From NCBI RefSeq assembly GCF_001983995.1, contig NZ_CP019450.1:62001-126000 (forward strand): a stretch of DNA of 64,000 nt. The letters are read 5' to 3'. Below the pieces are notes generated by a model, which was not told the origin of the DNA, made no database searches, and saw only the letters and a list, made by a program, of their open reading frames with translations. This DNA comes from Halioglobus japonicus. Its GTDB lineage: Bacteria > Pseudomonadota > Gammaproteobacteria > Pseudomonadales > Halieaceae. Within the stretch, counting starts at the first letter, position 1. Each line of letters opens with the position of its first letter. Position numbers and translations under genes: made by a program. Shown here in pieces: positions 27,828 through 47,763 of the stretch.

Positions 27828-29477
27828 ATGACAAAATACACAGCTGTGACCCAGTTCCGCACCGTGCTGGCGTATCTGACCCCGCATCGCGATCGATTGA
27901 TCCTGATACTGGCTCTGCTGCTGTGCGTAAGTGCAGCTTCGATCGTGCCGCCAATGCTCGCAGGGGTGTTCACTCGCGGCCTGCTGCAGCCTGAAGAAGC
28001 GGCTGTTGGGCCATGGGCCATTGTCGGGCTTTGGTTGCTGGTGGCCGCTGTCAAAGCGGGGCTGAGCGCGGCGTCTAGCTATATCATCGGGCAAACCGGC
28101 ATGGAGCTCACCCATGAGCTGCGCCAGCGTCTTTACGAACACATGCAGGTGCTGCCCCTGAGCTACCACCACAGCCAGCGGCGAGGCGATGTGCTCACCA
28201 TTCTCTACGCCGATACCAGTCGCATCAGCCACTTCGTGACAGGCAGTGGGTTGCAGGCGCTCCCGGCGCTGGTGACTTTGCTGGCTGCAATGGGAATGAT
28301 GTTGTGGCTGAACCCTCTGCTTGGCGGTATCGCGATGCTGTTTCTTCCCGGCTACATGCTGGCCATGAAAATACTGGGCCGCCGGATGCGGCCACTGTCT
28401 CGGCGCCTGGTGGATGCCGATAGCGCGAGCTATTCGGTAATGGAAGAAAACCTGGGGATGCTCCCAGCCATCAAAGCATTTAACCGGGAGCCATTGGAGA
28501 ACCGCCGTTTTGGCGAGAGCCTGCAACACCTGCTGGCGGTATCGCGGGAGCGCCTGTGGATTGACTCCCTGTATGGGCCCACGATGAACCTGATCGGCAG
28601 CGCCGGTTTGGTCGGCGCACTGGCGCTGGGTTACCAGCAAATTCAGGCAGGCCAACTTGAAGCACCTGAACTGGTGTCGCTGATGTTCTATGCGATGCTG
28701 ATGATGGGTCCGCTTCAAAGCCTGGCCAATCTGTATGGCCAACTTCAAGCAACAAGGGGGGCAGCTGAGCGCATTGTTGATTTTCTCAATGAGCAGCGAG
28801 AGCCAGAAGATAGCGGCGCAACCAACTTGCAGGCAACAGGCGCGAGCATCGATTTCTGTGAGGTCAGCTTTGCCTATCCGGGGAGCTCACAGGTACTGGA
28901 AGCCTTGAATTTACATATTGATGCAGGCGAAACTGTGGCGATCACCGGGCCCAACGGGGCGGGGAAATCCACCCTCGTGCACCTGCTAATGAGGTTCGCC
29001 GACCCGGACGCTGGCGTGATTCGAATCGGCGGTGTCGATACGCGGGAAGCGACCATAAAATCGGTACGCAATGCTATCGGGTTAGTCGCTCAACGGGTGC
29101 TGCTGATCAATGGTCCTGTGCGGGAAAATATTGCATACGGCAAGCCTGGCGCCTGTAACGCTGAAATCGAGGCTGCAGCGATTTCCGCTCGGGCTGACGA
29201 CTTTATTAGGGCGCTACCAGATGGCTACGACACCGTGATCGGCGATCAGGGGGTGCGCTTGTCAGGTGGCCAGAGGCAACGGCTGGCGCTGGCACGGACA
29301 TTGTTGAAAAACCCTGCGATTCTGATTCTGGACGAGGCAACGTCAATGTATGACGAGGAAGGTGAAACAGCATTCATTCACGAATGCGGCCAATCCCTGA
29401 CAGGCAAAACAGTACTGCTCATCACTCATCGCGAGAGTACGCTGGCACTCGCCGATCGAGTAATACGCCTGAAGTAA
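27828..29477 (+). CDS. ABC exporter (permease-ATPase fusion), likely peptide exporter of the RiPP-like locus
   Basis: 549 residues. Six membrane helices (residues 1-310) are followed by an ATPase with Walker A 'GPNGAGKSTLVHLL', Q-loop 'GLVAQRVLL', signature 'LSGGQRQRLALAR', Walker B 'ILILDEATSMYD' and 'LLITHRES'. There is no N-terminal C39 peptidase domain, so leader removal must be done by another protein. It is converging and nearly adjacent (7 bp) with the radical SAM gene. It is most likely the exporter for the modified peptide, although lipid export by an MsbA-like protein cannot be excluded. Confidence 0.85.
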   Translation: MTKYTAVTQFRTVLAYLTPHRDRLILILALLLCVSAASIVPPMLAGVFTRGLLQPEEAAVGPWAIVGLWLLVAAVKAGLSAASSYIIGQTGMELTHELRQRLYEHMQVLPLSYHHSQRRGDVLTILYADTSRISHFVTGSGLQALPALVTLLAAMGMMLWLNPLLGGIAMLFLPGYMLAMKILGRRMRPLSRRLVDADSASYSVMEENLGMLPAIKAFNREPLENRRFGESLQHLLAVSRERLWIDSLYGPTMNLIGSAGLVGALALGYQQIQAGQLEAPELVSLMFYAMLMMGPLQSLANLYGQLQATRGAAERIVDFLNEQREPEDSGATNLQATGASIDFCEVSFAYPGSSQVLEALNLHIDAGETVAITGPNGAGKSTLVHLLMRFADPDAGVIRIGGVDTREATIKSVRNAIGLVAQRVLLINGPVRENIAYGKPGACNAEIEAAAISARADDFIRALPDGYDTVIGDQGVRLSGGQRQRLALARTLLKNPAILILDEATSMYDEEGETAFIHECGQSLTGKTVLLITHRESTLALADRVIRLK

Positions 29478-29484
29478 ACTTGCG

Positions 29485-30537
29485 TCAGCTTGGGATCAGC
29501 CGGATAAGCTCTACGCCTTTGGGCAGCTCATCAAAGGGCGTATCAGTGTTGCAGCCCTTTTCTGCGTTCTCTTCTACCGCGAGGCAATATATCGGCGCAC
29601 CGTATTGTTCGGGCGGGCGCTCGGCAAAGCCCTGAGCCGCCTGTTCGGCCCGATCACGTGCCTCGACAAACAATGGCGAGGCAGTCCAGATATCTTTTAT
29701 AGAACGCTCATGCAAATTACCGGCCGAACGTTGCAAGTGAATACATGCCTGCACATTGCCATAGGGGTCAATGTCTACTCCCTGAACACCAACCGAACAA
29801 GTCGCGGTGACCGAGCAAGACTGACTCTGCCGCCCCTCAAGTTCCGATTCCAGCAGAGGATTTCGAGAACTGAGCTCAGCACGCACCACATCCCACACGG
29901 CACTGGAAGGTTGCAGCTCCAGTGGCGCAGTATCACCATTGTCTCGAGGGGCAACAGGCCCCTGGCAGCGCAACCGCACTCCAAGGGCATCAGACAATAG
30001 AAACATTTCCGAGATCTGATGCTGATTCCATTTCGTTGGCGTGCACACCATATCTACCCGGAGCCCCGCAGATACCGCCTGCGCGACATTCGCCATCAGG
30101 CGCTCAAAACTACCCGCCACCCGCGTCTGGCGGTCGTGAACTTCGGCATTGGCGCCGTGGAGGGACACTTCAACCTTGTAGGGGTCGACCTCATCACGCA
30201 TGCGCTCGATATTTCGAGCGCCAAGGGAATGGCCGTTGGTGCGTATCGTCGTCGCAAAACCGAGTTCGCGTGTTAGCGCACCAATAGCGAAGAAGTGCGG
30301 GTGTAGCATGGGCTCACCACCCGTCAGCATGAGATACATGGTCTGCATCTCGGCGAGGTCGTGCAGCAGCGTTCGGTATTGCGCAAGGCTCAGGGCCTCG
30401 CCCGGTTTGTCTCTATCGTTGTAGCAGTAGAAACAATCCAGATTGCAGCCGTAAGTAAGCTCAAGGGTGACATCATGGAGAAGGCGTTGCTCGCGAATAC
30501 GGCTGAGCACAACACGGCTATAGTGGTCGGCTGTCAT
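29485..30537 (-). CDS. Radical SAM/SPASM-type peptide-modifying enzyme
   Basis: 350 residues. The N-terminal radical SAM core has C-x3-C-x2-C at Cys31, 35 and 38 ('LTYGCNLDCFYCYNDRDKPG'), which holds the SAM-binding 4Fe-4S cluster, and 'YLMLTGGEPMLHPHF'. The C-terminal part has SPASM-like cysteines in 'CSVTATCSVGVQGVDIDPYG', 'NVQACIHL', then 'APIYCLAVEENAEKGC', suggesting auxiliary clusters. Enzymes of this layout crosslink or epimerise ribosomal peptides. The gene overlaps the PqqD-like gene (ATGA), as expected for a modifying enzyme and its recognition partner. Confidence 0.92.
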   Translation of the reverse strand: MTADHYSRVVLSRIREQRLLHDVTLELTYGCNLDCFYCYNDRDKPGEALSLAQYRTLLHDLAEMQTMYLMLTGGEPMLHPHFFAIGALTRELGFATTIRTNGHSLGARNIERMRDEVDPYKVEVSLHGANAEVHDRQTRVAGSFERLMANVAQAVSAGLRVDMVCTPTKWNQHQISEMFLLSDALGVRLRCQGPVAPRDNGDTAPLELQPSSAVWDVVRAELSSRNPLLESELEGRQSQSCSVTATCSVGVQGVDIDPYGNVQACIHLQRSAGNLHERSIKDIWTASPLFVEARDRAEQAAQGFAERPPEQYGAPIYCLAVEENAEKGCNTDTPFDELPKGVELIRLIPS

Positions 30538-30833
30538 GACTCAGCCTGTTGGCTCACCAGCTCCTGTGCCTGCAATTCAGCGATAAAATGCGCTATATCG
30601 TCAGACGCCCTGGAAAACGTCACTTCGTAATTTGCAGAGACAGAGGTGGCCAGTTGAGCGATCGTAGCGCCCGCCTTTAATTGTTCGAGTAATTCAAGGC
30701 CCAGTTCATTTACCACGACAATCTGGTCGCGATCGAGCTGAATAACAACCCCTTCGCCAGCTACCGCACGGTACCTGGCGCGGGGGGAGAGAGTAAACAC
30801 AAAGGGCCCAGCTATGATCCGAGAGTAGAACAT
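30534..30833 (-). CDS. PqqD-family peptide-binding (RRE) protein
   Basis: 99 residues with the PqqD fold pattern: 'PRARYRAVAGEGVVIQLDRD', 'IVVVNELGLELLEQLKAGAT', then 'FIAELQAQELVSQ'. In known systems PqqD-like proteins bind the leader of the precursor and present it to the radical SAM enzyme. The gene overlaps the precursor candidate's end by about 22 bp and the radical SAM start by 4 bp, so the three are translationally coupled. The start has a weak ribosome site, consistent with coupling. Confidence 0.9.
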   Translation of the reverse strand: MFYSRIIAGPFVFTLSPRARYRAVAGEGVVIQLDRDQIVVVNELGLELLEQLKAGATIAQLATSVSANYEVTFSRASDDIAHFIAELQAQELVSQQAES

Positions 30834-31000
30834 TGTAGAGGCACACTCTTCCCTGGCCCGTTGGGATTGGGCGGCGGCCCACAGGTCGAGGCGGCAGCCT
30901 CCAAGCGTTCAATACTAATCACTTTTGGCGGCTGGTAGGCTTTGCGCACTTTCTGCCCAGCCCCACTGCGAGTATCATTGTCGTGCTTTTGTGTACTCAC
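30812..31000 (-). CDS. Candidate RiPP precursor peptide, 62 residues
   Basis: The GTG at 31000 has GGGAG seven bases upstream and is a better start than the ATG at 31048. The leader is polar and basic, with 'KAYQPPKVISIERLEAAAS'. The Y22-x-x-P25 pattern followed by hydrophobic residues resembles the RRE-binding YxxP stretch of lasso and related leaders. The C-terminal part holds Cys40 and Cys57, a Pro/Gly-rich middle ('CGPPPNPNGPGKSVP') and ends 'CSTLGS' with a C-terminal Ser. STC and CST mirror each other around the segment. Location directly before a PqqD and a radical SAM gene supports the precursor role; the modification is unknown. Confidence 0.75.
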   Translation of the reverse strand: MSTQKHDNDTRSGAGQKVRKAYQPPKVISIERLEAAASTCGPPPNPNGPGKSVPLQCSTLGS

Positions 31001-31037
31001 GTATTCTCTCCCACCTGAACCTTGCTGATGAGCCACA

Positions 31038-33404
31038 CTACCGCGCATTCAGCGCAGGGTCACCCTTTACGTCATAAATCAGCGGCATGAAATCCCGAAT
31101 CACGCCTACATTGGCCGCCTTGGCGGCCGTTGCCGCGTTGCCAATCGATTCATTGGTCTCAAAAAGCCCTTCAGCCAGGCTCATGCCTAGCGTATGCGCA
31201 TCCGCATCAAGCGATGCTCCAGCAGGCGCCAGCGCAGCAATGGCGCCGCCATCGGGGTTGAGCACAAGTGCCGATGCCAACGACAAGTAATTAGGATACC
31301 AGTCGTTGCCCGCGGAACAGGTAAGCGCAGAGAATATCGGGCGGCCAGTATTTGTGAGGCTCGCTGCTGCGCTTTCATTAAAGAAGTTCTCTGAATAGTT
31401 ACCCAGCTGCTGGGTGGAACCGTGACCATCATAAGAGACATAGCCGGAATTCCAGGTTTCAGGGTCATTGAACGCTGTGCGCACGGCGGTGCCACTCACG
31501 TGAACGTTCTGCTCAACCGTAAAGAAGCCGCCCTCGTTGCCCAGGTATGCGCCCTTCTCCACGGTATTGGCAGGGAAATCGCCAGCGGAATCAGCGTTGT
31601 CGGCAAAAAGTACCGCCTTGTCATGCGAGGCGAAGTTGCCGTAAAGCAAATCTTCCTCATAGGCCTGCATTTTCTGCAGATACAGCAAGCCATCTTCATT
31701 AGTCGTTACCGCGATTCGACCTATGGCCAGGTCATTACGGCCATCATTGCCGAGCAATGCGTCATCAGACGCCACGATAGACCACGGAGTTGACACGAAC
31801 CGCACAGGGAGAACGCCATCGCCGTATCCCATCCGGTCTTTCAAATCGAGGCTGCCCTTGCCCAACAGCACCACGTAGGAAGGCACCTGACTCCAGCGCT
31901 TGCGGACTTTTTCCATAAATAACGTCACTGCAGCCGGATCCTTGCGGCCCTGGGCGTATTGGTCGTAGATGTCTTCCAGCCATACAATCTTGACCGCGCC
32001 AAACATCTGACGGCGATAGCTTGCCAATTCCTCAGCAAACTCGGTAAGCGAGCGAGGCGCGATGATCAGGTAATCAGAGCCATTGGAACGCTTCTGCAGA
32101 GAGGACCGCTCATCAATCGCGACTTCAGGAAGTGCAGCTGTACCCTGTTGCATCACCACATAGTCTGCGCCAGCGAGTGCGTCGAAAGAAGCGATAAAAC
32201 CATCGGTGCCGCCGTCCACCACTGCAACGTCCTGCCGCACGGATGAACCACCATCGGCCACTTCATACACACTGATCTGATCGCTAGAAAAGCCAGAGAC
32301 CGACTGGAGGCCTCCCACGGCATTGTGCACGCGTAAAAAACCGTCTTTTGCAACAGGTTGGCGCTGGTAGTCGAGTTCAATGTCATCAACATAAACCCGG
32401 CTTCCGCCATCTGGAATACCTGAAATTGTCAGCGCTACCGTATTGGTGCCATCCATCATAAGATAGTCCTGCACAGCTGCCGCGCTGATGACCACTTCCT
32501 GAAAGCCATCGAAACTTTGCGCTGCCACATCGACACCGTTCAGCGCTACCGTCACATAATGGTCGTCGCCCGTCTGTAATTCGCTGGCTCCACGAAGGCG
32601 CACCCGCAGGTTCGCATTACCAGATACATCGGGATCGGGGGCATCGAATGTAAATTCACGGGTAATAAAGTCGGGAAAACCGGTGCTCAACACATCCCAG
32701 AACCAAAAGTCTGCCTCGGGCTCCTCGGCAACTGCCCATGGGATGTACACCATGTCCGGCTCTTCTTCGAACAACAGGGTCTCTGGGAAGGCAGTCAGAG
32801 CAGTTTCTGCGGGGCCCTCACCCACGGCGACGGCCATTCTCAGCGCACGCTTGCCACCACCGAATTTCAGGTGATAGGCATTTTCGCTCGTGAAGAATGT
32901 ATCGTATGTCTCTGCAACAAATTGAATCGAATCGCCCGCGGCGTCGTAGTACCAGGCCACACCTTTGCGGGCATTACGCAGCACGAGTCTGCCCTGGTCT
33001 GCTCGATCACGGATGCTTGCCTCGGATTTGCCCATCTTCAGTGCAAGCTCGGCAATCGAAACGCTTTGGACCCCGTCACCCTGGGTATATAGCCAAACAT
33101 GTCCCGAGGGCGGCACAGACTCTTTGGCCGAGACAGCAGCAAGATCGCTACCGCGGAAACTATTGCGTGATAGTTTTGCGGGCGATGGCAGCGCTTGTCG
33201 CTCAGCGCGGCTCACTCCCATGCCGTGGGGCTCGCGACGACGCCCTACAAAGCCGCCGCTAATAGCCTGCCACTCGCCCCACGTTGCCTGCTCGCTGCTA
33301 CGCGGTGCTGCCTGTGTACCGGCACTGGCGGCAATCAGGCCGAGCGCCAGCGCCGCTGCGCCGATGCCAGCTCTCGCTGCATTGTACTTGCCTGATAGTG
33401 GCAT
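31038..33404 (-). CDS. Stand-alone C25 (gingipain-type) cysteine peptidase
   Basis: 788 residues from the ATG at 33404, which follows GGGAGAGGTTA and starts a signal peptide ending 'AGTQAA|PRSS'. Residues about 30-420 form beta-rich prodomain-like and jelly-roll-like parts. The C25 core is C-terminal: 'VSYDGHGSTQQLG' carries the catalytic His (about 661), 'FSALTCSAGN' the catalytic Cys (about 696), and the chain ends 'DVKGDPALNAR', as C25 domains usually do. No anchor follows. It is 37 bp upstream of the precursor on the same strand. It is secreted to at least the periplasm, where it could remove the leader or process surface proteins. Confidence 0.88.
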   Translation of the reverse strand: MPLSGKYNAARAGIGAAALALGLIAASAGTQAAPRSSEQATWGEWQAISGGFVGRRREPHGMGVSRAERQALPSPAKLSRNSFRGSDLAAVSAKESVPPSGHVWLYTQGDGVQSVSIAELALKMGKSEASIRDRADQGRLVLRNARKGVAWYYDAAGDSIQFVAETYDTFFTSENAYHLKFGGGKRALRMAVAVGEGPAETALTAFPETLLFEEEPDMVYIPWAVAEEPEADFWFWDVLSTGFPDFITREFTFDAPDPDVSGNANLRVRLRGASELQTGDDHYVTVALNGVDVAAQSFDGFQEVVISAAAVQDYLMMDGTNTVALTISGIPDGGSRVYVDDIELDYQRQPVAKDGFLRVHNAVGGLQSVSGFSSDQISVYEVADGGSSVRQDVAVVDGGTDGFIASFDALAGADYVVMQQGTAALPEVAIDERSSLQKRSNGSDYLIIAPRSLTEFAEELASYRRQMFGAVKIVWLEDIYDQYAQGRKDPAAVTLFMEKVRKRWSQVPSYVVLLGKGSLDLKDRMGYGDGVLPVRFVSTPWSIVASDDALLGNDGRNDLAIGRIAVTTNEDGLLYLQKMQAYEEDLLYGNFASHDKAVLFADNADSAGDFPANTVEKGAYLGNEGGFFTVEQNVHVSGTAVRTAFNDPETWNSGYVSYDGHGSTQQLGNYSENFFNESAAASLTNTGRPIFSALTCSAGNDWYPNYLSLASALVLNPDGGAIAALAPAGASLDADAHTLGMSLAEGLFETNESIGNAATAAKAANVGVIRDFMPLIYDVKGDPALNAR

Positions 33405-33567
33405 TAACCTCTCCCATCGATTTGATAGATCGCACGCTGTCATCCGGACAGCCAAAGCGATCTTGACCCCCAATTATCGTCCCTATCACCTTCCCTGTAA
33501 ACGTTGCTGCGGACCACAAATGCACCGTGATATGATCCGCGTCACACAACGAGCAAAAGGTTGTCAG
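33405..33567. promoter_or_regulatory. Divergent promoter region of the RiPP-like locus
   Basis: 162 bases between the leftward peptidase-precursor-PqqD-radical SAM operon and the rightward kinase-like/S26-like pair. Both must be driven from here. No clear operator palindrome or sigma-70 pair with correct spacing was found by eye. Confidence 0.45.
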
Positions 33568-34464
33568 ATGGAACTCGCCACCTGGGGCGAACAGCACGTA
33601 GATCTCTCGTTCGCCGGCTTCCAGTTCCGCATTGAGGGGCTGACGCAGGAGCAGTGTGCGCCCATCAGGCAGCGCTATGGCTTAAACCCTGATCAGGCGA
33701 GCATCCAACGCTGCCAGGCCACCATTTGTGCCGCTGAAAAGGCTTTTCCGAGGCACTCTATAGAGCGCTATAACGACCCTCAAACCGGCTACAGACAATT
33801 GATTGAAGAAGTTGCCGACTCCAAACTGAGCGTGGAGGGTGTCGACTACCGCGGCGAAATCAGCCTCACCCCCGACGCCGGTGGAGTGCTGTACACCAAC
33901 ACCGCCACCGAGGCCGCTACCTCGGTGGTGTTCGAAAACTTCCTGCGAATCCTCAGCGCACTCATGGCTCTAGAGTTGCGTGGACTGCTGCTGCACAGCG
34001 CCGGGGTCGTCATCAACGACAAGGCGTACTTGTGCCTGGGTCGCTCAGGCGCTGGTAAATCAACCCTCGCCGCCAAAGCACTAGAGGCCGGCGCGACTAT
34101 CCTTAGTGATGACGGTAATCTACTACTCCCCTCCCCAGAAGGCGGCTACGAGGTAGCACCAGTACCCTTCGCCGGAGACCTCGGGCAGACAGCGTGCCAG
34201 GGTAACCGCCCCTACCCCGTAGCGGGCTTGTTCTGGCTGTGCCAAAGCGATGAACTGGCTGTAGAGACCCTGTCTCCGGGGGTCGCCTTCGGCCGGCTGA
34301 TGGCCTGTGCCCCAACAGTGAATTCCCTGCATTCACGCGGACCCCAGCTGGAAGATGTTCTGCTGGAGATTCTTGCGATACTCCCATTTCACCAGCTCAA
34401 ATCGCGGGCAGGGGATGACTTCACGACGATTTATTCCCGCATACTTGAGGCTAACCATACATGA
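33568..34464 (+). CDS. HPr kinase-like protein (HprK-like P-loop)
   Basis: 298 residues from the ATG at 33568, preceded by AAAAGG; the frame upstream overlaps the peptidase gene and is not used. The C-terminal half has 'LCLGRSGAGKSTLAAKALEA' (P-loop) and then 'GATILSDDGNLLL', where the SDD lies as in HPr kinase/phosphorylase. The N-terminal half is unlike classical HprK. Homologues in lasso-peptide loci such as that for paeninodin phosphorylate the C-terminal Ser of the precursor. Here the precursor candidate ends in Ser, so a similar role is possible but inferred. It overlaps the next gene by 4 bp. Confidence 0.75.
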   Translation: MELATWGEQHVDLSFAGFQFRIEGLTQEQCAPIRQRYGLNPDQASIQRCQATICAAEKAFPRHSIERYNDPQTGYRQLIEEVADSKLSVEGVDYRGEISLTPDAGGVLYTNTATEAATSVVFENFLRILSALMALELRGLLLHSAGVVINDKAYLCLGRSGAGKSTLAAKALEAGATILSDDGNLLLPSPEGGYEVAPVPFAGDLGQTACQGNRPYPVAGLFWLCQSDELAVETLSPGVAFGRLMACAPTVNSLHSRGPQLEDVLLEILAILPFHQLKSRAGDDFTTIYSRILEANHT

Positions 34465-34871
34465 CCTCAAGGGCGCATATCGCTGAGGTACTGCGCGAGG
34501 GCGAGGCACTCAAGCTGACTGTCAATGGCGAGTGTATGATGCCCACATTGGGTCCTGGGTCCTGTATTACAGCCCAGAAAGCGAACAAATACCTACCCGG
34601 TGACGTTCTGGTGTTCACCACCAGCCATGACAGTATGCTTGTGCACCGCTTACTTGGCACTCTTCCCGGAGAACGCCTGCTATGCAAGGCAGACCGTGAA
34701 CCTCGGCCAGACGCCCTGCTCCCCATAACCAGGGTCGTGGGGCGGGTTATTGAAATTGAGGGCCAGCCGCTGCGCACCCAGGCCACGAAGCGCCTAACAT
34801 GCTGCTTGGCCTTCGCCTGGCACCTGACCCGGCTAGCCACGGCAAAGCTAGTACCGAGGAAAACCGTTTAG
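34461..34871 (+). CDS. S24/S26-like peptidase-fold protein with Cys at the nucleophile position
   Basis: 136 residues. The S26/LexA-type fold pattern 'VNGECMMPTLGPGSCI' corresponds to the G-x-S-M-x-P motif with Cys25 where the nucleophilic Ser would be. 'YLPGDVLVF' and 'MLVHRLLGTL' follow, and Lys76 in 'LLCKADRE' sits where the general base is expected. There is no N-terminal membrane anchor; the C-terminal end is helical and basic. It is coupled to the kinase-like gene. Such proteins recur in RiPP loci with HprK-like and PqqD-like genes, where their role is unknown. It may act as a thiol peptidase or have lost activity. Confidence 0.75.
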   Translation: MTSRAHIAEVLREGEALKLTVNGECMMPTLGPGSCITAQKANKYLPGDVLVFTTSHDSMLVHRLLGTLPGERLLCKADREPRPDALLPITRVVGRVIEIEGQPLRTQATKRLTCCLAFAWHLTRLATAKLVPRKTV

Positions 34872-35024
34872 TTATCACTAATACCCAGACTCCTCCGGGA
34901 ACCCGCTTCCACTAGATTGTGACCCAATGGCGTGAACGTGCTCACAAACTGTAAAAGCCCCATTTGTAGAAAAGACCGCCGCTGATATAGTTGGAAAACG
35001 CTTATTCGATGAAGCTTGGATACC

Positions 35025-36641
35025 ATGCTGCTATCACGCCGCGCCCTTGCACTTGGCACGGGACTTTTGCTATTGAACAACCCTATCGCCCACGCCTTTG
35101 ATTTTGATTGGGGCAGTGTAACGTGGGTTGATGGTGATGATGGTCCGCAAATTTTCAATGACGTAGATGGTTCCGGCGTGACCGTGACCGTGACCGTGAC
35201 CGGAGACGTCGCTCAATTGACAAACAACACGCCCGCGCTGTTCGACGTTGGAGGCAATGACGAACTTAGACTCTTCCCAAACTACTCGTCCACCGCCCAA
35301 TCGGTTACCGCGCAAATTGCATTCTCTACCCCTGTGTCGGTGAGCCAGCTCATTATTAAAGATATCGACAGCCTAGATTTCTTTGGATTTGGTTTCAATG
35401 ACGCGGTGGAAGTTCAGGGCAGCGATGGCGTGAACCCGGTACTGGCGGATAATGTCACTGTAGGCTCTGCGGTAACGGATGCCGGGGACAACATTAACTA
35501 TGATTCTCAGACATTTACGTCGCTGGGTTACACAGACACAACAGGCTGGCTTACAACCAATTTCAGTGACCCCAATGCGCTGGTCACTTCCATAAGCATC
35601 ACTCATAAGCCTCTCGACAATTTTGATGACCCTATAGGTCAAGCTATAACCATCTCCGATTTTTCGTTTACGCCTGGCAGCGATAGAGGAGATGCGCCCT
35701 CAACCTACGGCGATCCGCAGCACAATGCGTCGGGCAATGTCATTTACCTGGGCGACATCGCGCCAGATTTCGAAAACACCACCCCCCACGCTGTCCCTGG
35801 AGCAGATGCTGTAGGCGACGACGACAACAACCTTAACGATGAAGACGGCGTAACATTCACTGCCTCTGCTGGTGCCACTCCAAATGCGCTAACGGCAAGC
35901 ATCGAGACTATCAGCGAGATTGCAACTCACTATGTTTGTGCCTGGGTAGATCTCGATAACAGTGGCAACTTTAGTGATGACGAAGGGCGCTGCTCGGATA
36001 GAACCAGCACGTCGGATGCCTTGGATCCACCTATTGAGCTTACGTGGTCGGCGGATACGGGTGTTGTCTCCAGTTACGCAAGGGTGCGCATCTCCTCTGA
36101 TGTTCTCACAACAAATGACTTTGACACCGTTGTGAGCGATGGTGAGGTTGAGGACTACCAACTTATCTACGACCCCACCTCTGTAACCATTGGCAACATT
36201 GAACTGGAGCCTGCCTCAGTAGACAGTTATCTGAGCGAGTCTGGCACAGGCGAAATGGACACCGCCTCACTTTATCGCGTCTTGCAGGTCTGGGCACCGG
36301 CGCTGGCCGCACAGACCAATCCCGAAGACCGCGATGCAACACTGCAGGCTCTGACCAGTTATCTGGACCCCGACGGTGACGGGCAGGTAGCGCTGCTCAT
36401 CTGGGAAACGCTCGAAGAACAAGGCACACTGGGCTTCTACGTGGAGCGCAGAACCCCGGGCGGCGAGTGGCAATCCGTGAACGAGAGAATGCTACCCTCG
36501 CTGCTCATCGCGCCCATGGGTGGGCAGTATCAGCTGGTAGATCCCTCCGTGTCCTCAGGCACCTGGGAGTACAGGTTGATCGAGCAAGAGGCCCGCGGCG
36601 GCAAGAACACCTACGGGCCATATGAACTGGAACTTCGCTAG
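35025..36641 (+). CDS. Secreted GEVEDY-type repeat protein A (541-codon frame)
   Basis: About 538 residues with a signal peptide 'MLLSRRALALGTGLLLLNNP'...'AHA|FDF'. An N-terminal beta-rich domain is followed by an acidic, calcium-binding-like linker ('DDDNNLNDEDGV') and a domain ending 'SDGEVEDYQLIY', as in GEVEDY surface proteins. The C-terminal 150 residues contain 'LDPDGDGQVALLIWETLEEQ', 'TLGFYVERRTPGGEW', and end 'RGGKNTYGPYELELR'. This tail recurs in the next two large genes and resembles the FN3-like domain attached to C25-type proteins. An in-frame TTG at 35016 is an alternative start. It converges on gene B with 24 bp between. Confidence 0.75.
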   Translation: MLLSRRALALGTGLLLLNNPIAHAFDFDWGSVTWVDGDDGPQIFNDVDGSGVTVTVTVTGDVAQLTNNTPALFDVGGNDELRLFPNYSSTAQSVTAQIAFSTPVSVSQLIIKDIDSLDFFGFGFNDAVEVQGSDGVNPVLADNVTVGSAVTDAGDNINYDSQTFTSLGYTDTTGWLTTNFSDPNALVTSISITHKPLDNFDDPIGQAITISDFSFTPGSDRGDAPSTYGDPQHNASGNVIYLGDIAPDFENTTPHAVPGADAVGDDDNNLNDEDGVTFTASAGATPNALTASIETISEIATHYVCAWVDLDNSGNFSDDEGRCSDRTSTSDALDPPIELTWSADTGVVSSYARVRISSDVLTTNDFDTVVSDGEVEDYQLIYDPTSVTIGNIELEPASVDSYLSESGTGEMDTASLYRVLQVWAPALAAQTNPEDRDATLQALTSYLDPDGDGQVALLIWETLEEQGTLGFYVERRTPGGEWQSVNERMLPSLLIAPMGGQYQLVDPSVSSGTWEYRLIEQEARGGKNTYGPYELELR

Positions 36642-36665: not shown

Positions 36666-39329
36666 TCAGGGTGACGCGTCCAGCGTGAACGGACCGTATG
36701 TCCGAGTACTGCCTCGCGCCTCCTGCTCAATCAGACGGTAACGCAATACCTGCTGAAGGTCCGCCTCGGGGTCGAGCAACTGATATTCCGCACCCATGGG
36801 CGCAATGGGTAGCGCTGGCAGCATCCGCTGGTTAACCCTGTTCCACCCCCCCTCGCTTCCGCGCCGCTCAACGTAAAAGCCCAGGGTACCGTACTCCTCC
36901 AGCGTCTCCCAAATCAACTGCGCGACCTGGCCATCACCATCGGGATCAAGATAGTCGATCAACGCGACGGCGATGTCTTCGCGTGAGGCATCGCCCAGCA
37001 GTTCAGCTTGATTTTCGTCCCAGCTGGCGAGCATTGCCAGCAGAACCTGTTCCGGCGCCCCTCTGGGTCCCAGCAACTGTTCGATCGGCATTGCCTCGAG
37101 GCTGAAGCTCGCCAGGGTCACCGCGGTAGGATCTACCACAATCTGGTAGTCCTCCACCTCTCCATCACTGGCTTCGCCAGCGGCGTCTGCCGCAGTGAGT
37201 GCGTCTGTACTGATCCGAACACGCGCGTAGGTAGAGTAGGGTACCGAGGTGGGCAAGCCCGTCCAGACGAACTGCACAGGTGTCTGAGGCCCAGCCGAAT
37301 TAGTTGGGACGGGCACGCAGCCGGGCGTCCCAAGATCAGTCGTATCGAAACTGCCATCACCGACCGCGCCCGACGGTACATCCAACCAGGCGCAGACCGT
37401 TGCAACCGTATTGGCAAAATTATTGACCGTGACGCTGGCCTGGATAGTGCCCGGCGAGGTGTAAGTAAAGACAACCCCGTCCTCATCGTTACCGGCACCC
37501 ACCTCGCTCGTATCATTGGTGTCATCGCCGTCAGCGCCCGCATTGGACTGGGAGCCGCTTTCGAGATCGGGCGGAACCACACCCAGATATGGCCCAGCGG
37601 TCAAAAGAACGTTCTGCCGATCAAAGACCCAATATGCGACCTGCTCCGTCGTATGTTGTCGCTCGTCATCCTGAATGGTGTCTTCGTCAATGCGTAAATT
37701 TATCAGACCAGAGTTCGGCGGTTGTGGCTCATCGATAGGCGGCGTACCAAAAAGCACCGCCCAACCACCATTGAACCCATCCATCGCCGCCAAAGTTGCG
37801 ACCCCTGAAACGTACTCAGTCGTCGCTGGCGTAAGGGTGTATCCGGGAGGGGTCGAGGGATTGGTCACTCCTTGTATAAAATCAGACCCCAGAGCCACCT
37901 CATAGGCGACCCCATTTTGTGCTTCAAGCCCAGTCGTGCCTGACTCAGTCTCAACTATAACGTATCCGAGCGTTTCGTTTGCGCGAGGCCCATCATCTTC
38001 GAGGATACCCACATCCTCTGCTACATGTTTGCCCACACATATACCATCGGCATCTGGTGGAGATAGTTCCGACACGCAATCATTACTCCAGAATACAGAG
38101 AAGCGCTCGTCGTTAAATGTCATCACCTGCCCGAATACGGCAGGTTGCACAAATGGAACCAGCGGTGTGACATCCGCGGTAGAGGCCGGGTCCCAAAAGG
38201 TAGGCTGAACCCCATAATTTGTCACGGTTGACGTTACCGTCCCTGCCAGGATGCGACGACCGTCTGGGAGAGTCTGTTCACCTGATTCAGCAACCAGGCA
38301 GGTAGCATCCCAGTCTACTTGTGCAGAAAACGCCTTCCCGGGACGCTGTGCTCGAATTTGGAAACTACCACTTCCGACATTGCGCACACGCAAGACTCTC
38401 TCGTCATCACCAACTGAAGGCAATACCGGGGTACACACCACGACCGGACTGACGAACTTCCCTCTCAAATTGACAGTGACCCAATCGTCGTTAGAGCCCG
38501 AGACTTCTCGCGTTTCAATGAGCGCAGCTGCAGAATGCGAAGCATCCGCATAACCATCGATATCGCCAAAATCGCTGAAAGCAGCGCCCCGCTCAAAGCT
38601 AAATCCAGATATGCTCGACCCTTGAACCGTGGGGTTGTCATTTGGAAACGGGTACACCGGAAGCTGTTCCACGACCGGAAACCAGGTCAAGACTATTCTC
38701 TCGATGGCTTGCCGACCTTCGAAGCCAAAGGTGAACCTGGACTCAGGCCCATAAGACGAACCGGTCGTGACCGCGGGCCGAACGCCATTCACTCCAATCA
38801 CATCATGTTGAGCGCCTGGTATAAAACTAGTGGGCGGCACACTCGTCGCGACAGATACAGGAAAACCCTCAACTCGATAACCGTCAGCAAAACTGGAACC
38901 ACCACTATCGCCGGCATCAACATCGTTCACCTCCACTGTATCTACACTGACACCGACCGGAGTACTTCCATCCGTTTCAAAAAACTCAATCGTAATCTCG
39001 ACCCGTTGATCGGGATTTGCAGCACTGCTGCCGTGATTAGCCGCCAGTTCAAGCTGACCGAAGGGGGCACCAAATGCGCAGCTATTCGTGCAGGGAGTAC
39101 CTTCCTCGAAAAGGCTCGAGGCATCTTGCACGTCCTGCGGAGTTATGGTCGCCCTCACGAGAATATCAGCACCCACCCCAGACACAGTATCAACATAGGT
39201 GAACACACCGCTGCCAAGATCAGTGCGAGTGGCAGCCGCCCAGTCAAAGCTATAAGCGGAAGACTGCGTGGCCGCCAGCCCTGTACTCAAGGCTAGGGCA
39301 ATTGTTATACCAATATTCGTTATTCGCAT
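36666..39329 (-). CDS. Secreted GEVEDY-type repeat protein B
   Basis: 887 residues with a signal peptide ending near 'ATQSSA|YSFD'. An N-terminal domain like that of protein A ('FDWAAATRTDLGSGVFTYVD') is followed by a lectin-like beta domain ('SPVVVCTPVLPSVGDDERVL', 'ICVGKHVAEDVG', 'NETLGYVIVETESG'), an acidic 'NDTSEVGAGNDEDGVVF' linker and 'SDGEVEDYQIVVDP'. The C-terminal 150 residues are nearly the same as in protein C ('SFSLEAMPIEQ', 'LDPDGDGQVAQLIWETLEEY', ending 'YGPFTLDASP'). Probably extracellular and calcium-stabilised; function unknown. It is read in the same direction as protein C, 113 bp downstream of it. Confidence 0.75.
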   Translation of the reverse strand: MRITNIGITIALALSTGLAATQSSAYSFDWAAATRTDLGSGVFTYVDTVSGVGADILVRATITPQDVQDASSLFEEGTPCTNSCAFGAPFGQLELAANHGSSAANPDQRVEITIEFFETDGSTPVGVSVDTVEVNDVDAGDSGGSSFADGYRVEGFPVSVATSVPPTSFIPGAQHDVIGVNGVRPAVTTGSSYGPESRFTFGFEGRQAIERIVLTWFPVVEQLPVYPFPNDNPTVQGSSISGFSFERGAAFSDFGDIDGYADASHSAAALIETREVSGSNDDWVTVNLRGKFVSPVVVCTPVLPSVGDDERVLRVRNVGSGSFQIRAQRPGKAFSAQVDWDATCLVAESGEQTLPDGRRILAGTVTSTVTNYGVQPTFWDPASTADVTPLVPFVQPAVFGQVMTFNDERFSVFWSNDCVSELSPPDADGICVGKHVAEDVGILEDDGPRANETLGYVIVETESGTTGLEAQNGVAYEVALGSDFIQGVTNPSTPPGYTLTPATTEYVSGVATLAAMDGFNGGWAVLFGTPPIDEPQPPNSGLINLRIDEDTIQDDERQHTTEQVAYWVFDRQNVLLTAGPYLGVVPPDLESGSQSNAGADGDDTNDTSEVGAGNDEDGVVFTYTSPGTIQASVTVNNFANTVATVCAWLDVPSGAVGDGSFDTTDLGTPGCVPVPTNSAGPQTPVQFVWTGLPTSVPYSTYARVRISTDALTAADAAGEASDGEVEDYQIVVDPTAVTLASFSLEAMPIEQLLGPRGAPEQVLLAMLASWDENQAELLGDASREDIAVALIDYLDPDGDGQVAQLIWETLEEYGTLGFYVERRGSEGGWNRVNQRMLPALPIAPMGAEYQLLDPEADLQQVLRYRLIEQEARGSTRTYGPFTLDASP

Positions 39330-39442: not shown

Positions 39443-42400
39443 CTATCGGCTTGGCACTTCCAGCACGAACGGACCATAGGTACGCTTACTACCTCTCGCC
39501 TCTTGCTCAATCAACCGGTAATGCAACACTTGCTGCAGGTCCGCCTCTGGATCAAGCAGTTGATATTGCGCACCCATGGGTGCGATGGGCAGCGAGGGCA
39601 GCATACGATTGTTGATCCGCGTCCAATGTCCACTGTTACTCCTCCGCTCTATATAATAACCCAAAGTACCACGCTCCTCGACGGTCTCCCAAATCAACTG
39701 CGCGACCTGGCCGTCACCATCGGGATCAAGATAGTCGATCAGCGCGGCGGCGATGTCTTCGCGTGAGCTATCTTCCAGCAGTCCAGCCTGGCTTTCATCC
39801 CAACTTGCGAGCATTGCCAGCAATACCTGCACCGGCGCCCCTTCGGATCCCACAAATTGTTCGATCGGCATTGCCTCTAGGCCGAAGCTCGCCAGGGTCA
39901 CCGCTGTTGGATCCACAACGATCTGGTAGTCCTCCACCTCACCATCACTGGCGCCACCAGTGGAATCTGCCGCAGTAAGTGCATCTGTACTGATCCGAAC
40001 ACGCGCATAGGTAGAGTAGGACACTGAGGTGGGCAAGCCATTCCAGGAGAACAGCACCGGCGCTTGGGGCACGTCGGTATTAGGTGAGACGGTCACGCAA
40101 CCGGGCGTGCCAAGATCAGACACATCGAAGCTGCCATCTGCCACCCCTGCCAGGTTGGGCACATCCAGCCAGGCGCAGACCGTTGCATCCGTATCGGCAA
40201 AATTGTTGACCGTCACGCTGGCCTGAATAGTGCCCGGCGAGGTGTAAGTGAAGGTCACCCCGTCCTCATCGTTACCGGCACTTACCTCGCTCGTATCATT
40301 GGTGTCATCGCCGTCAGCACCCGCACTGTACTGGGAAGCGCTTTCAAGATCGGGCGGAATCACACCGAGATGTGGCCCGGTGGTCACAAAGGCATTTTCT
40401 CGATCGAACACCCAGACAGCCACTTGTTCTGCCGTGTGATTGCGCTCACCATCACCGATAGTGTCTTCATCTATCGCCAGGTTAATTTCTCCTGCGGAAA
40501 CAGGATCAGTCATTGCGTTGGGTGGCAGCAGCACCGCCCAACCTCCATCTGCACCATCCATAGCGGCGTGGATGGCCACACCAGAAACGTAGTCTGAGGA
40601 TGAGAGCGCATAGGTATAGGGCGGTGGCGTCCCTCCAACACCCTGAATGGAATCTGTGCCAAGAAACACTTCATATGCTGCGCCATTAGCGGCAACGCTA
40701 CCGATGGTGCCGCCCGTAGTCTCCACGATGATATAGCCGAGAGTCTCAGAACCACGACCGGATGTATCCTCACCCACATGCTTGCCAACACAAATGCCAC
40801 CACTATCGGGCGGTGCCGTGCGTGCGCTGCAGTTGTTACTCCAAAACGCACTGAAACGAGTATCGTTAAAGCTCATGACCTGGCCGAAGACTGCAGGCTC
40901 AGTAAACGCCGGCGCCGGGCTCACATTCTCTGTCTGGCTGGTCAACCATCCGGCTGCCAGTGTGCTGCCACTAGTGAGGTCAGACTCCACTGTGCCGGCG
41001 ACAATGCGACGTCCATCAGGAAGGGTGCTGTCGCCCGCCTCCACCACCAGGCAGGAAGCTTGCCAATTACCCACAAATACCCCGCCGGGGCGCTGTGCAC
41101 GGACTTCGAAACTCTCGCTCGCTACATTACGAACGCGAATCACTCGCTCGGCATCCCCAGCAGAGGACAAAATGGGCGTGCAAACCACGACCGGGTCCTG
41201 ATAGTCGCCGCGCAGATTCACAGTAGTCCAATTGTCGCCGCTGCCGGACACTTCCCGCGTCTCCAACAAGGGCGCCTGGCCATGAAAAGCATCCCCGTAA
41301 TCAACTTCCGGTGCATCGCCAAAGTCCCTCTCGGGCGACGGTGGCGGGATGACCTCCACAATGAAATCCTCCGCCTCACCGTCCGTGGCAATGCCGACTG
41401 CATCGGCAGCAGTCAATAGGTCGCTACTGATCCTGAAACGCAGGAACGTGGTATACCCGGACTCAGGCAAACCAGTCCATGTAAGTGTCTGATCTGAAGA
41501 CCCGGGAGCCACTGCAACGCAACCTTCCTCGGCCACTTCACCGGCGTCAAAACTGCCATTGACTACCGGCCCATCCATCCAGCCGCAAAGCGTCACGTCG
41601 CCGGCTGTCGGGTTTTGCGCTCGAACTGTCGCTGTAAGCGTCAGCGTCGGCGTGAAGGACAGCGCCAGACTCACCCCCGTCTCGTCACTGCCAACGCCGC
41701 GCACGCTGGTGTCGTTAAGATCATCCGCCAGCGCATTGGCATCTGACTGCGGGTCCTCACGGTCACCCGGGTTGAAACCCATATAGGGCTCTTGCAGCAG
41801 GATACCTTCGGCCGTCTCCATCAGGAAATAAGCCACGCGCTCGGCAAGATGTGTGCGGTCGTCAAACGTGGTGTCCTCGTCAATGGCAAGGTCCAACTCT
41901 CCATCGGCGAGAGGGTCACCACCGAACAGCACTGCAAATCCGCCCTGCCCGCCAATCTCGGCCGTCTGGGTAACGGTGCCCGATACAAAGTTGCCCGTCA
42001 GGCCATAGGTGTAAGGCGGCGAATTGTCCACGCCCTCTACAAACGCAGGGCCCACCGCCGCAACCCAGTTGCGTTCGTTGATGGTGCCGCTGGCGCTTTC
42101 GAAGACCATATAACCGAGGGTCTCGTTGTTGCGCACGGTGAGGTCGTCGTTTTTACCCACGTGCTTACCGACGCAGATGGCCGCCCCCGTGGGCGGATTG
42201 GCCCTGTCAGTACAATCGTGGGTCCAGAATTGGCTGTAACGGGAATCGTTAAAGCTCATGACTTGGCCCAACACGACGGGCGATGTATAAGTTTGGGCCA
42301 GGGCTGGGGTTATATTCACCGTGTCGGCGCTGTCCCAGCCGAAGAACAGCTCGAAACCGTTGGTCTCGGTGGCTTCTGTCGTCCGCGCTTCGAACTTTGG

Positions 42401-42850
42401 CCCGCCCACGGCAGTCAGGTCGTAATCACCCTCTTCCGCAACCAGACAATACACATCGGACGCCGCCGAGCCTGGCTGGTCACTGGGTACCTGTAGCCTG
42501 ACATCGAAGCTGTTATTGGTGCGGTTGTTGACCCTGACTCCCGCCTCAGTAAGGCCAGCGTTATCCAGTTCGCGTGTACAGACGATAACGGGGCTGTCGT
42601 ATACCGTGCGTAAGCTCACGGTCTGCCAGGCGTCGCCCACACCGGACGCAACCACCGTTTCCAGCAGCCCACTCTGCTGGTGACCGGCATCGCCATAGCC
42701 CGCTGCGTCGCCGTAATCCGTTTCAGGGACAGACAATTGGGGGACATCAACGGCAGCATGAATATTGGTGTTCGCAAACATCACAGCCGTAAGCGTTAAT
42801 AGCAGCGCGTTAAGCCGGGGGGTCCCAACGCTGGCAGGTCTAGCAAACAT
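39443..42850 (-). CDS. Secreted GEVEDY-type repeat protein C
   Basis: 1,135 residues with a signal peptide ending near 'NTNIHA|AVDV'. It contains two tandem copies of the lectin-like domain found once in B (first around 'SPVIVCTRELDN' and 'ICVGKHVGKNDD'; second around 'DPVVVCTPILSSAGDAERVI' and 'ICVGKHVGEDTS'). Each is followed by an acidic linker and a GEVEDY- or GEAEDF-type module. The same C-terminal domain closes the protein ('LDPDGDGQVAQLIWETVEER', ending 'TYGPFVLEVPSR'). Sequence identity with gene B at the DNA level is high over the last 900 bp, indicating a recent duplication. Likely exported surface protein of unknown binding partner. Confidence 0.75.
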   Translation of the reverse strand: MFARPASVGTPRLNALLLTLTAVMFANTNIHAAVDVPQLSVPETDYGDAAGYGDAGHQQSGLLETVVASGVGDAWQTVSLRTVYDSPVIVCTRELDNAGLTEAGVRVNNRTNNSFDVRLQVPSDQPGSAASDVYCLVAEEGDYDLTAVGGPKFEARTTEATETNGFELFFGWDSADTVNITPALAQTYTSPVVLGQVMSFNDSRYSQFWTHDCTDRANPPTGAAICVGKHVGKNDDLTVRNNETLGYMVFESASGTINERNWVAAVGPAFVEGVDNSPPYTYGLTGNFVSGTVTQTAEIGGQGGFAVLFGGDPLADGELDLAIDEDTTFDDRTHLAERVAYFLMETAEGILLQEPYMGFNPGDREDPQSDANALADDLNDTSVRGVGSDETGVSLALSFTPTLTLTATVRAQNPTAGDVTLCGWMDGPVVNGSFDAGEVAEEGCVAVAPGSSDQTLTWTGLPESGYTTFLRFRISSDLLTAADAVGIATDGEAEDFIVEVIPPPSPERDFGDAPEVDYGDAFHGQAPLLETREVSGSGDNWTTVNLRGDYQDPVVVCTPILSSAGDAERVIRVRNVASESFEVRAQRPGGVFVGNWQASCLVVEAGDSTLPDGRRIVAGTVESDLTSGSTLAAGWLTSQTENVSPAPAFTEPAVFGQVMSFNDTRFSAFWSNNCSARTAPPDSGGICVGKHVGEDTSGRGSETLGYIIVETTGGTIGSVAANGAAYEVFLGTDSIQGVGGTPPPYTYALSSSDYVSGVAIHAAMDGADGGWAVLLPPNAMTDPVSAGEINLAIDEDTIGDGERNHTAEQVAVWVFDRENAFVTTGPHLGVIPPDLESASQYSAGADGDDTNDTSEVSAGNDEDGVTFTYTSPGTIQASVTVNNFADTDATVCAWLDVPNLAGVADGSFDVSDLGTPGCVTVSPNTDVPQAPVLFSWNGLPTSVSYSTYARVRISTDALTAADSTGGASDGEVEDYQIVVDPTAVTLASFGLEAMPIEQFVGSEGAPVQVLLAMLASWDESQAGLLEDSSREDIAAALIDYLDPDGDGQVAQLIWETVEERGTLGYYIERRSNSGHWTRINNRMLPSLPIAPMGAQYQLLDPEADLQQVLHYRLIEQEARGSKRTYGPFVLEVPSR

Positions 42851-46500: not shown

Positions 46501-47763
46501 ACAGGTGACAATAGATTCTTCCGGCACCGTGATCTCAAAGAAGCCATCGCCGACATCATCGAGATTTAGCGTTGTATCGGGTGTATCCGGCGTGCGGAAG
46601 GTGCAGTTAGTGAGATCGGGGTCATTGGTAAAGCCAGCCTGAACAACTTCGGTGGCAGTAAAGCCCGAAGGACCGACCTCGTCTGCAGGACGCCATTGAT
46701 ACGTTGCAAATCCCGAGGCATCCGTGAGTGTGCTCTTTGGGCCAGTGGCAGGATCTTCCTGTACCGGCAGGATCCAGGCGTAATCGCCATTGACGCCAGG
46801 AGCGTCCACATCACCAGTAATGCCCCAGTTGGCGCCAGGAACCCCATCGCTGGTGGTGCCAGGGTCGGGGGTGAGGTCGAGGATTTTCTCTACAGTCACT
46901 GAAGGCGAACACAGCTGGAATGCTGCTTCGCGCAACGCGTCTTCCAATTCTGAAAAATTCGGCTGCCGATACACGTCATCGGTGCTGATATCGAAGGGGT
47001 CGCCATCGTCAGGATAAACGTCGTCACCGGAAATCTTCTTGATGCGATCCAAAGAAGACGTGGAGGTAACGCCTTTGCCCACCGCCACCACGAGAATATG
47101 CGAGCCCTGTGACTTGAGGTTATTGGCATTGGCCACAGCGCGGTCGGCCGCCGGGTTTTTGTTGGAATCGGTGGTTTCGTTGTTGTCCAGAGGAACCTTG
47201 TTGTAATACTCAGCTGTAGTCACGCGATCGTTTCGAATCACGCGGGTGGGATCGCCGTCGGTGATAAACACCGTCAGGTGAGGTACGTTGAACGAGGGGC
47301 GAGGTGCGAAAGCAGACCCCGCAATACCCATGCGCAGGCCATCCTCCCAATTGGTATTACCATTAGGGTTGTAATCAGAATCCACGTAAGTGTCGAGAAA
47401 GACTTTGGTCTGGTCGGTAACGGTAATGTAGTCGCCGGGCTGGAACGGCCCGATGCCTGGCAGCCTGGCCACCCTGGAAAACTCCGCCACCGCCATGGAC
47501 GAACTGGTGTTCTTAATCGCGGCGGTAAATGCCTTGAACGCCGTGCGAACATTGCCAGCGTTACTGCCGATAGAGCCCGACTCATCGAGAATCATCAACA
47601 CGTTCAGGCCACAGGCCTGATCGAGATCCGGGTTGACGACCGGGCTTTCTGTAGCACGCACGACTGCGTGCCCCTCGTGACTTGCCACGAAGGTCAGTGT
47701 GACAACTGCTGTGGCCACCAGCGCGGTACTGGCAGCACGTGACGCTATAGAAAAAAGGCGCAA
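43556..47763 (-). CDS. Large vWA and DUF11-type repeat surface protein with C-terminal sorting-like tail, frameshifted
   Basis: Two frames form one protein of 1,402 residues. After a signal peptide, a vWA domain has MIDAS 'MILDESGSIGSNAGNVRTAF' (Asp60, Ser62, Ser64). It is followed by eight repeats of the type 'SIEKxTNGxDADtPxGP...WxYxVxNTGN...xDPSHYFG', resembling DUF11 modules of surface proteins. The end is 'FGVPVMPLFYLVMSVLALAA' followed by 'HARRK', a short motif-TM-basic tail similar to IPTL-type sorting signals. Adding one base to the four-G run at 46044-46047 (plus) gives 'DADRPPGPFIRQGRNVEWRY' and joins the frames. It is probably a long stalk that binds a surface or ligand via the vWA domain. 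Confidence 0.8.

Follow-up and report, generated by a model that had tools for sequence, protein, structure and literature searches.

Background

The lppAKBSDN genes of Paenibacillus alginolyticus encode linear polyphosphorylated peptides (LPP), ribosomally synthesized and post-translationally modified peptides (RiPPs) which have been called restricted to Bacillota (PMC13381572). LPP precursors follow the pattern YxxPxVLxHQxIxFET|xxS, in which LppS cuts after T-1 and LppK phosphorylates Ser3; LppS requires S29, H68 and D93 (PMC13381572). LPP and lasso peptide clusters are often found together, and LPP and paeninodin clusters, which have no established role, often lie near capsule loci (PMC13381572). 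Paeninodin-type phosphorylated lasso peptides are represented by PadeK, ThcoK and PsmK/PsmN (PMC9266682, PMC10368454), and kinases of this type phosphorylate a conserved C-terminal Ser (PMC9266682). In type IX secretion, the C25-family protein PG0026 has been proposed to remove the C-terminal domain of the cargo and to couple what is left, through a peptide bond, to a linker presumed to be part of an anionic lipopolysaccharide (PMC4560394). Here we compare with these systems a locus at 27828-34871 of a 64,000-nucleotide stretch (the window) of the 4.1-Mb Halioglobus japonicus genome (NZ_CP019450.1, forward-strand positions 62,001 to 126,000), where a short peptide, a PqqD-type protein, a radical S-adenosylmethionine (SAM) enzyme, a C25 cysteine peptidase, an HprK-like kinase and an S26-like protein are encoded together.

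We consider it rather likely that this locus encodes an LPP-like RiPP pathway to which a radical SAM step has been added, travelling with a module made of a PorU-like C25 peptidase and adhesin-like proteins that end in a shared C-terminal domain, here called the tag. An initial annotation had proposed a RiPP-like locus whose peptide is modified by radical chemistry and possibly phosphorylated; the evidence supports both the radical SAM modification and, as probable, the phosphorylation. The same annotation named no described RiPP class with exactly this gene set; however, the leader, the RiPP recognition element (RRE), the HprK-like and S26-like proteins and the MsbA-like exporter match LPP as far as these are described in the text of PMC13381572, and the C-terminal Ser of the peptide matches the paeninodin-type lasso peptides. 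The words 'radical', 'C25' and 'Proteobacteria' do not occur in the main text of PMC13381572, and no paper on a gene neighbourhood of C25-family or gingipain-like peptidases with radical SAM enzymes was found in the open PMC literature. The locus would provide a Gram-negative setting for an LPP-like phosphopeptide pathway, and the joining of such a pathway to a sortase-like protease and tagged adhesins would give a testable hint of a job for these phosphopeptides. Three predictions follow: that the S26-type peptidase uses Cys, that the leader is cut at one defined position, and that the C-terminal tag may mark a protein-sorting system.

Gene content and layout of the locus

All genes named in the initial annotation were recovered at their places, and three adhesin-like genes follow past its right edge:

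27828-29477, + strand: MsbA-like ABC exporter, accessory, a candidate peptide exporter (PF00664/PF00005; best NCBIfam match MsbA_rel)
29485-30537, - strand: radical SAM/SPASM peptide-modifying enzyme (PF04055, 9.5e-20; SPASM PF13186, 1.5e-06)
30534-30833, - strand: PqqD-type discrete RRE (PF05402, 3.9e-10)
30812-30994, - strand: precursor peptide, 60 aa from GTG (counterparts beside C25 in nine other loci)
31038-33404, - strand: C25 cysteine peptidase, PorU/gingipain relative (PF01364, 3.9e-50)
33568-34464, + strand: HprK-like kinase, probable peptide Ser kinase (ScmC, 2.2e-10; HprK_rel_B, 2.1e-06; both under cut-off)
34461-34871, + strand: protein resembling S26 (signal peptidase I), probably the leader peptidase (TIGR02227, 2e-06, under cut-off)
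35016-36641, + strand: GEVED adhesin-like protein (PF20009, 3e-10), shared C-terminal domain at 36159-36638 from domain alignments
36666-39329, - strand: GEVED adhesin-like protein (PF20009, 4.3e-08), shared C-terminal domain at 36669-37148 from domain alignments
39443-42850, - strand: GEVED adhesin-like protein (PF20009, 7.4e-15), shared C-terminal domain at 39446-39925 from domain alignments

The leftward operon and the divergent kinase/S26-like pair, separated from C25 by a 163-bp gap, agree with the layout first described; the gap between the peptide and C25 genes is 43 bp when counted from the GTG start. The lasso cyclase reported as missing was indeed not found, since Asn_synthase (PF00733) matched none of the 50 window proteins scanned with Pfam, while the same library finds PF00733 in locus L026. 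No B2 peptidase turned up in the Pfam scans of the window proteins, a search with B2's own model not having been made. To the left of the cassette, matches to Wzz, Poly_export, BBP2_2, Wzy_C, EpsG and glycosyltransferases mark a polysaccharide locus. The nearby polysaccharide locus and the lack of a macrolactam cyclase are as in LPP; paeninodin-type clusters, in contrast, have this cyclase and no radical SAM enzyme.

Conservation of the cassette

Twelve loci with a radical SAM relative were mapped (the window, L005, L012-L017 and L026-L029), of which L005 and L014 are short contigs of 3.1 and 4.9 kb. Their sources are Halioglobus, Chromatiaceae, Thermoanaerobaculaceae and Verrucomicrobiae metagenome-assembled genomes (MAGs), the Solemya velum symbiont and other gammaproteobacterial genomes; misbinning is possible for the MAG contigs. 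The radical SAM, PqqD and HprK-like genes are each present in 12/12 loci (the last incomplete at L014), the S26-like gene in ten (not in L014 and L015), and C25 and the precursor in ten each (neither in L005 and L014). The conserved neighbourhood that had been proposed as a check is thus observed: peptide, C25 and kinase genes recur beside the radical SAM gene in 10/12, 10/12 and 12/12 loci, and the peptide gene adjoins C25 in all ten loci that have both. Both outcomes that the initial annotation had named as refuting are thereby contradicted. The named gene set occurs together at more than chance level. Beyond the cassette families and the frames opposite them, no other gene was common to at least three lineages in the 12 loci.

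The order C25, peptide, HprK-like, PqqD, radical SAM, S26-like, all in the same direction, is found in L012, L013, L016, L017 and L026, and is rearranged in the window, L027, L028, L029 and L005. Two cassettes are present in L015; the second copy (L015:8381-15776, in the same MAG locus) is divergent and has a fused C25 of 1625 residues. In genome G057, a different contig (L069) carries a second fused C25 together with a PqqD-like gene.

The exporter had been counted as part of the unit, but a homologue is found only in the window and in L026 (2/12 loci, some loci being short). In L026, from the same-genus genome G299, the ABC gene stands beside HprK-like and Asn-synthetase-like genes. About 400 bases past that cassette (L026:10767-18545) there is a lasso-like group of two Asn-synthetase-like genes, an HprK-like gene, the MsbA-like ABC gene and a PRMT-like methyltransferase gene; one of the Asn-synthetase-like proteins has a lasso cyclase model as its best match, under the cut-off (327/525 bits). 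These lasso-type genes near the cassette recall the LPP and lasso clusters that lie together (PMC13381572).

Relatives of the radical SAM enzyme numbered 1107 at E<=1e-50, and the 120 of these that were listed include proteins from Halioglobus maricola, a species that appears to have the cassette. The gene is patchy: it was detected in 4/140 genomes of the family (E<=1e-30), 5/274 of the class (E<=1e-40) and 1/398 of the phylum sample (E<=1e-60), each count including the window's own genome. This distribution would fit horizontal transfer, and the capsule-associated LPP and paeninodin clusters mentioned above have no established role; the peptide could accordingly be a free signal or toxin, with the C25 and adhesin genes merely on the same mobile surface island and functionally unlinked to it. 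We regard this as unlikely, however, since the gene set is kept in the lineages despite rearranged order and tag genes on other contigs.

The precursor peptide

In the gap next to C25, the loci yielded ten precursors. A similarity search also found four of the nine from outside the window (L012, L013, L016 and L026), and the rest were chosen by eye from six-frame translations. A non-redundant set of 25 was formed from a profile search (22 proteins, several overlapping the locus set) and three further precursors from the loci. In all 25, a set thus assembled in part by profile, [YW]xxP, Glu -7, Glu -4, Ala -1 and Cys +3 stand at fixed spacing. The residue at +1 is Gly, Ala or Ser in 23, at least two core Cys are present in 24 and a core Lys in 24. 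Of the 25, 23 end in Ser, one in Thr and one in Ala; of the ten precursors read in the loci, nine end in Ser.

The YxxPx leader and its distance to the cut are those of LPP (PMC13381572), and because the spacing is the same, cleavage is predicted after the invariant Ala and the invariant Cys is read as standing at the LPP Ser3 position. Applied to the window, this predicts a leader cut RLEAAA|STC and a core that ends in CSTLGS. The precursors differ from LPP in having Cys and not the phosphorylated Ser at +3 (25/25), and Ex[LM]ExxA in the leader where LPP has HQxIxFET (PMC13381572). The conserved C-terminal Ser, a further difference from LPP, points to phosphorylation as in the paeninodin type, with which the locus also shares the [YW]xxPx leader, a lasso-like RRE and an HprK-like kinase.

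GGGAGAG precedes the GTG start of the window precursor, and an alternative ATG at 31048 would give 78 aa. The database representative of the window peptide (P0001) has Glu at the position of the GTG-encoded Val, so its start must lie elsewhere, for example at ATG 31048.

Tailoring enzymes

Among solved structures, the PqqD-type protein is closest to the lasso RRE TbiB1 (E 3.9e-13), followed by a lasso PqqD chaperone (6.4e-10), and as in LPP the discrete RRE is encoded beside the precursor. Tandem pairs of PqqD-type genes precede the radical SAM gene at L028:8747-9361 and L029:1704-2314. The radical SAM enzyme, which has no counterpart in LPP as described, keeps C31, C35, C38, C247, C265, C318 and C329 invariant in 16 sequences; its relatives in the PDB are BlsE, SkfB and PqqE. 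In sactipeptides and ranthipeptides, radical SAM enzymes form thioethers from core Cys; here, 24/25 precursors have at least two core Cys.

The P-loop GxxxxGK[ST] and an LSD[DE] motif are conserved in the HprK-like proteins; that of the window scores under all NCBIfam cut-offs. Such a kinase is common to all 12 loci and to LPP, and these motifs suggest that the HprK-like protein is a probable peptide Ser kinase. It matches ScmC of SynChlorMet best and the radical SAM/SPASM family is also shared with that system; however, both fall short of its cut-offs (ScmC 40.3/125 bits, ScmF 77.3/400 bits), and no paper carrying the name SynChlorMet was found in the open PMC literature.

The S26-like protein has the SEC11A subunits as its best solved relatives (E 2.3e-07), and is the candidate S26/SipW-type leader peptidase. 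In the profile alignment GxCMxP falls on GSMEP of SEC11A (GAMEP in one entry) and HR on HR; the aligned SEC11A residues are presumably the catalytic ones. GxCMxP is present in 12/12 S26-like sequences (11 plus that of L065), with the His and Asp kept and Cys in place of the Ser. Since LppS needs Ser29, His68 and Asp93, the S26-like protein would be a Ser-to-Cys variant, if active; the comparison uses the residues and motif named in PMC13381572 and not the LppS sequence. It is therefore likely, by analogy, to be a leader peptidase with Cys-His-Asp instead of Ser-His-Asp.

By function, the peptide arm would work like LPP, but it lacks the Ser nucleophile and the Ser3 motif, and we therefore place the locus beside LPP as a variant and not within it. 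C25 with tagged adhesins and the Gram-negative hosts also set it apart from LPP as described in PMC13381572.

The C25 peptidase, the adhesin-like proteins and the tag domain

Against the PDB, the C25 peptidase matched PorU (6za2, E 2.4e-13) and gingipain R (8.6e-06). His661 and Cys696, which we take to be the His-Cys catalytic pair of the C25 family, are invariant in 7/7 sequences. The N-terminus of C25 and the starts of the three large GEVED proteins are signal-peptide-like, as judged by eye. The GEVED domain has been described from fibrillar adhesins (PMC10952558). One domain of about 130-160 residues ends all three proteins according to alignments, and the model of this tag from the third protein is fibronectin-III-like with inserted helices (predicted local distance difference test score 82).

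In the family sample, the tag (E<=1e-8) is found in exactly the 4/140 genomes that have the radical SAM gene, an agreement with odds of one in 15,329,615 under independence of the genomes, which does not hold. Of the 274 class genomes, six have the tag (E<1e-20), among them the five that encode the radical SAM enzyme, and 7/8 cassette genomes searched individually have it. The stand-alone tag proteins examined have a terminal tag and varied front parts. In the Solemya symbiont (G799), four tag proteins are on contig C3 and the cassette on C1; in G393, one of two copies of the tag is likewise on a contig without the cassette. In L015, L027, L028 and L029, C25 is preceded within the same protein by a relative of the tag, and in the three long fused C25 proteins measured, of six, a linker has 17-25 Lys plus Arg per 66-70 residues. 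The tag domain may mark a protein-sorting system. A second tag protein beside the cassette of G299 (L026:2088-5215) has its tag split over two reading frames, which may be a broken gene or a sequencing error.

The initial annotation had C25 cleave the peptide outside the cytoplasm. Under this explanation C25 would act outside the cell to mature a secreted modified peptide, for example an antimicrobial one, and the GEVED proteins would be unrelated neighbours. The C25 gene does adjoin the peptide gene wherever both occur, its start is signal-peptide-like and an exporter is next door in the window. However, leader removal has a direct precedent in LppS, for which the cassette holds the S26-like candidate, the exporter is not conserved, and four loci have C25 fused to a tag relative, while the tag on secreted adhesins follows the cassette across genomes. 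We consider this explanation quite unlikely.

We judge it very improbable that the peptide, once mature, remains in the cell envelope and regulates C25 as its cofactor or inhibitor, in the manner of a detached propeptide. The constant proximity of peptide and C25 genes would agree with it, and the Lys/Arg-rich linker of the long C25 suggests self-processing, but the core sequences show no sign of a C25 inhibitor and the C25 fusions argue that the tag is the partner.

As in type IX secretion, cargo-like proteins with a shared C-terminal domain and a polysaccharide locus accompany a C25 peptidase. The profile of this C25 enzyme aligns with PorU over some 340 positions; PG0026 of the type IX system we take to be PorU. 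On the other hand, C25 scores 152.2 bits against an NCBIfam PorU cut-off of 420, the tag is fibronectin-III-like with helices and the host is a gammaproteobacterium. Two of the three adhesins were scanned with NCBIfam, and neither showed a type IX tail. The search for the SprA translocon matched 0/7 genomes but also none of the 14 control genomes. The locus is not the same system as type IX secretion.

Proposed pathway

In the LPP-like pathway that we favour, the PqqD-type RRE would bind the [YW]xxP leader and the radical SAM enzyme would modify the Cys-containing core. The HprK-like kinase would phosphorylate the peptide, most likely at the C-terminal Ser, and the S26-like Cys-His-Asp peptidase would remove the leader by cutting behind the invariant Ala, so that the core would have some 20-30 residues and start with xxC. 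The gene content, its conservation and co-occurrence, the motif register and the exchange of Ser for Cys are seen directly in the sequences; the kind of these reactions is suggested by the LPP and paeninodin precedents. The secreted PorU/gingipain-like C25 would recognise the adhesin-like proteins and cut at or before the C-terminal tag. From the association of the genes we infer both this action of C25 on tagged proteins and a part for the peptide in the handling or anchoring of adhesins.

Several observations weigh against this proposal. Its support is wholly computational. The selection of precursors by profile and by eye favours the leader motif, which is partly shared by construction, and the co-occurrence of the genes is in part due to physical linkage and shared ancestry. 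The exporter is seldom nearby, the fibronectin-III-like fold of the tag is common and the structure model of C25 was too poor for use. C25 relatives are present in the family genomes G325 (5e-23) and G394 (2e-38) without a close radical SAM gene or tag, and weak tag-like domains in G232 (1e-9) and G177 (2e-6), which have only distant radical SAM proteins (best E about 1e-15). In G796, the cassette is on the 4.9-kb contig L014, and C25 and the tag were not found in the 4.4-Mb MAG. The sixth class genome with the tag, G194, gave neither a radical SAM gene nor C25 when searched for them; its tag lies where a contig ends, next to an S26-like gene (L065), and a cut in the assembly is the likely reason for the missing parts.

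As to the fate of the peptide, we entertain one more specific idea, though we doubt it: the mature peptide could be a genetically encoded covalent linker, attached to exopolysaccharide through the phosphorylated Ser at its C-terminus, which an NTP_transf_5 protein might cap with a sugar, with C25 acting as a transpeptidase that swaps the adhesin tag for the N-terminal amine or a core Lys of the peptide. If so, a RiPP would tie surface proteins covalently to the polysaccharide coat, the part that the anionic lipopolysaccharide linker plays in type IX secretion. An NTP_transf_5 protein is encoded in the window 28 kb from the locus, the link being uncertain:

364-1488, + strand: NTP_transf_5 protein (PF14907, 4.9e-28)

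The family scores over the cut-off in 8/9 cassette genomes, but also in 2/14 controls. In L015 and L028 it lies near the cassette; in G393 the distance to the tag gene is about 5 kb. LPP and paeninodin clusters may carry this family, as we presume that the 'NTP transferase' of LPP is a member of the NTP_transf_5 Pfam family.

Other surface protein genes

A further GEVED protein of the window (50553-52667, - strand) has DUF4842 and DUF6923 and no tag domain; GEVED and the tag are therefore separable. A DUF7507-repeat protein (43556-45940, - strand) ends in VPVMPLFYLVMSVLALAALIGHARRK, which resembles another, CTERM-like membrane sorting tail, and its neighbour (45955-47763) has VWA and DUF7507. 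At L087:4348-5874, which lies left of the window in this genome, a solitary PqqD-like gene stands beside a gene for a protein with the CTERM-like tail VPLPSLWLVPLVIALGGLAARRNRRR.

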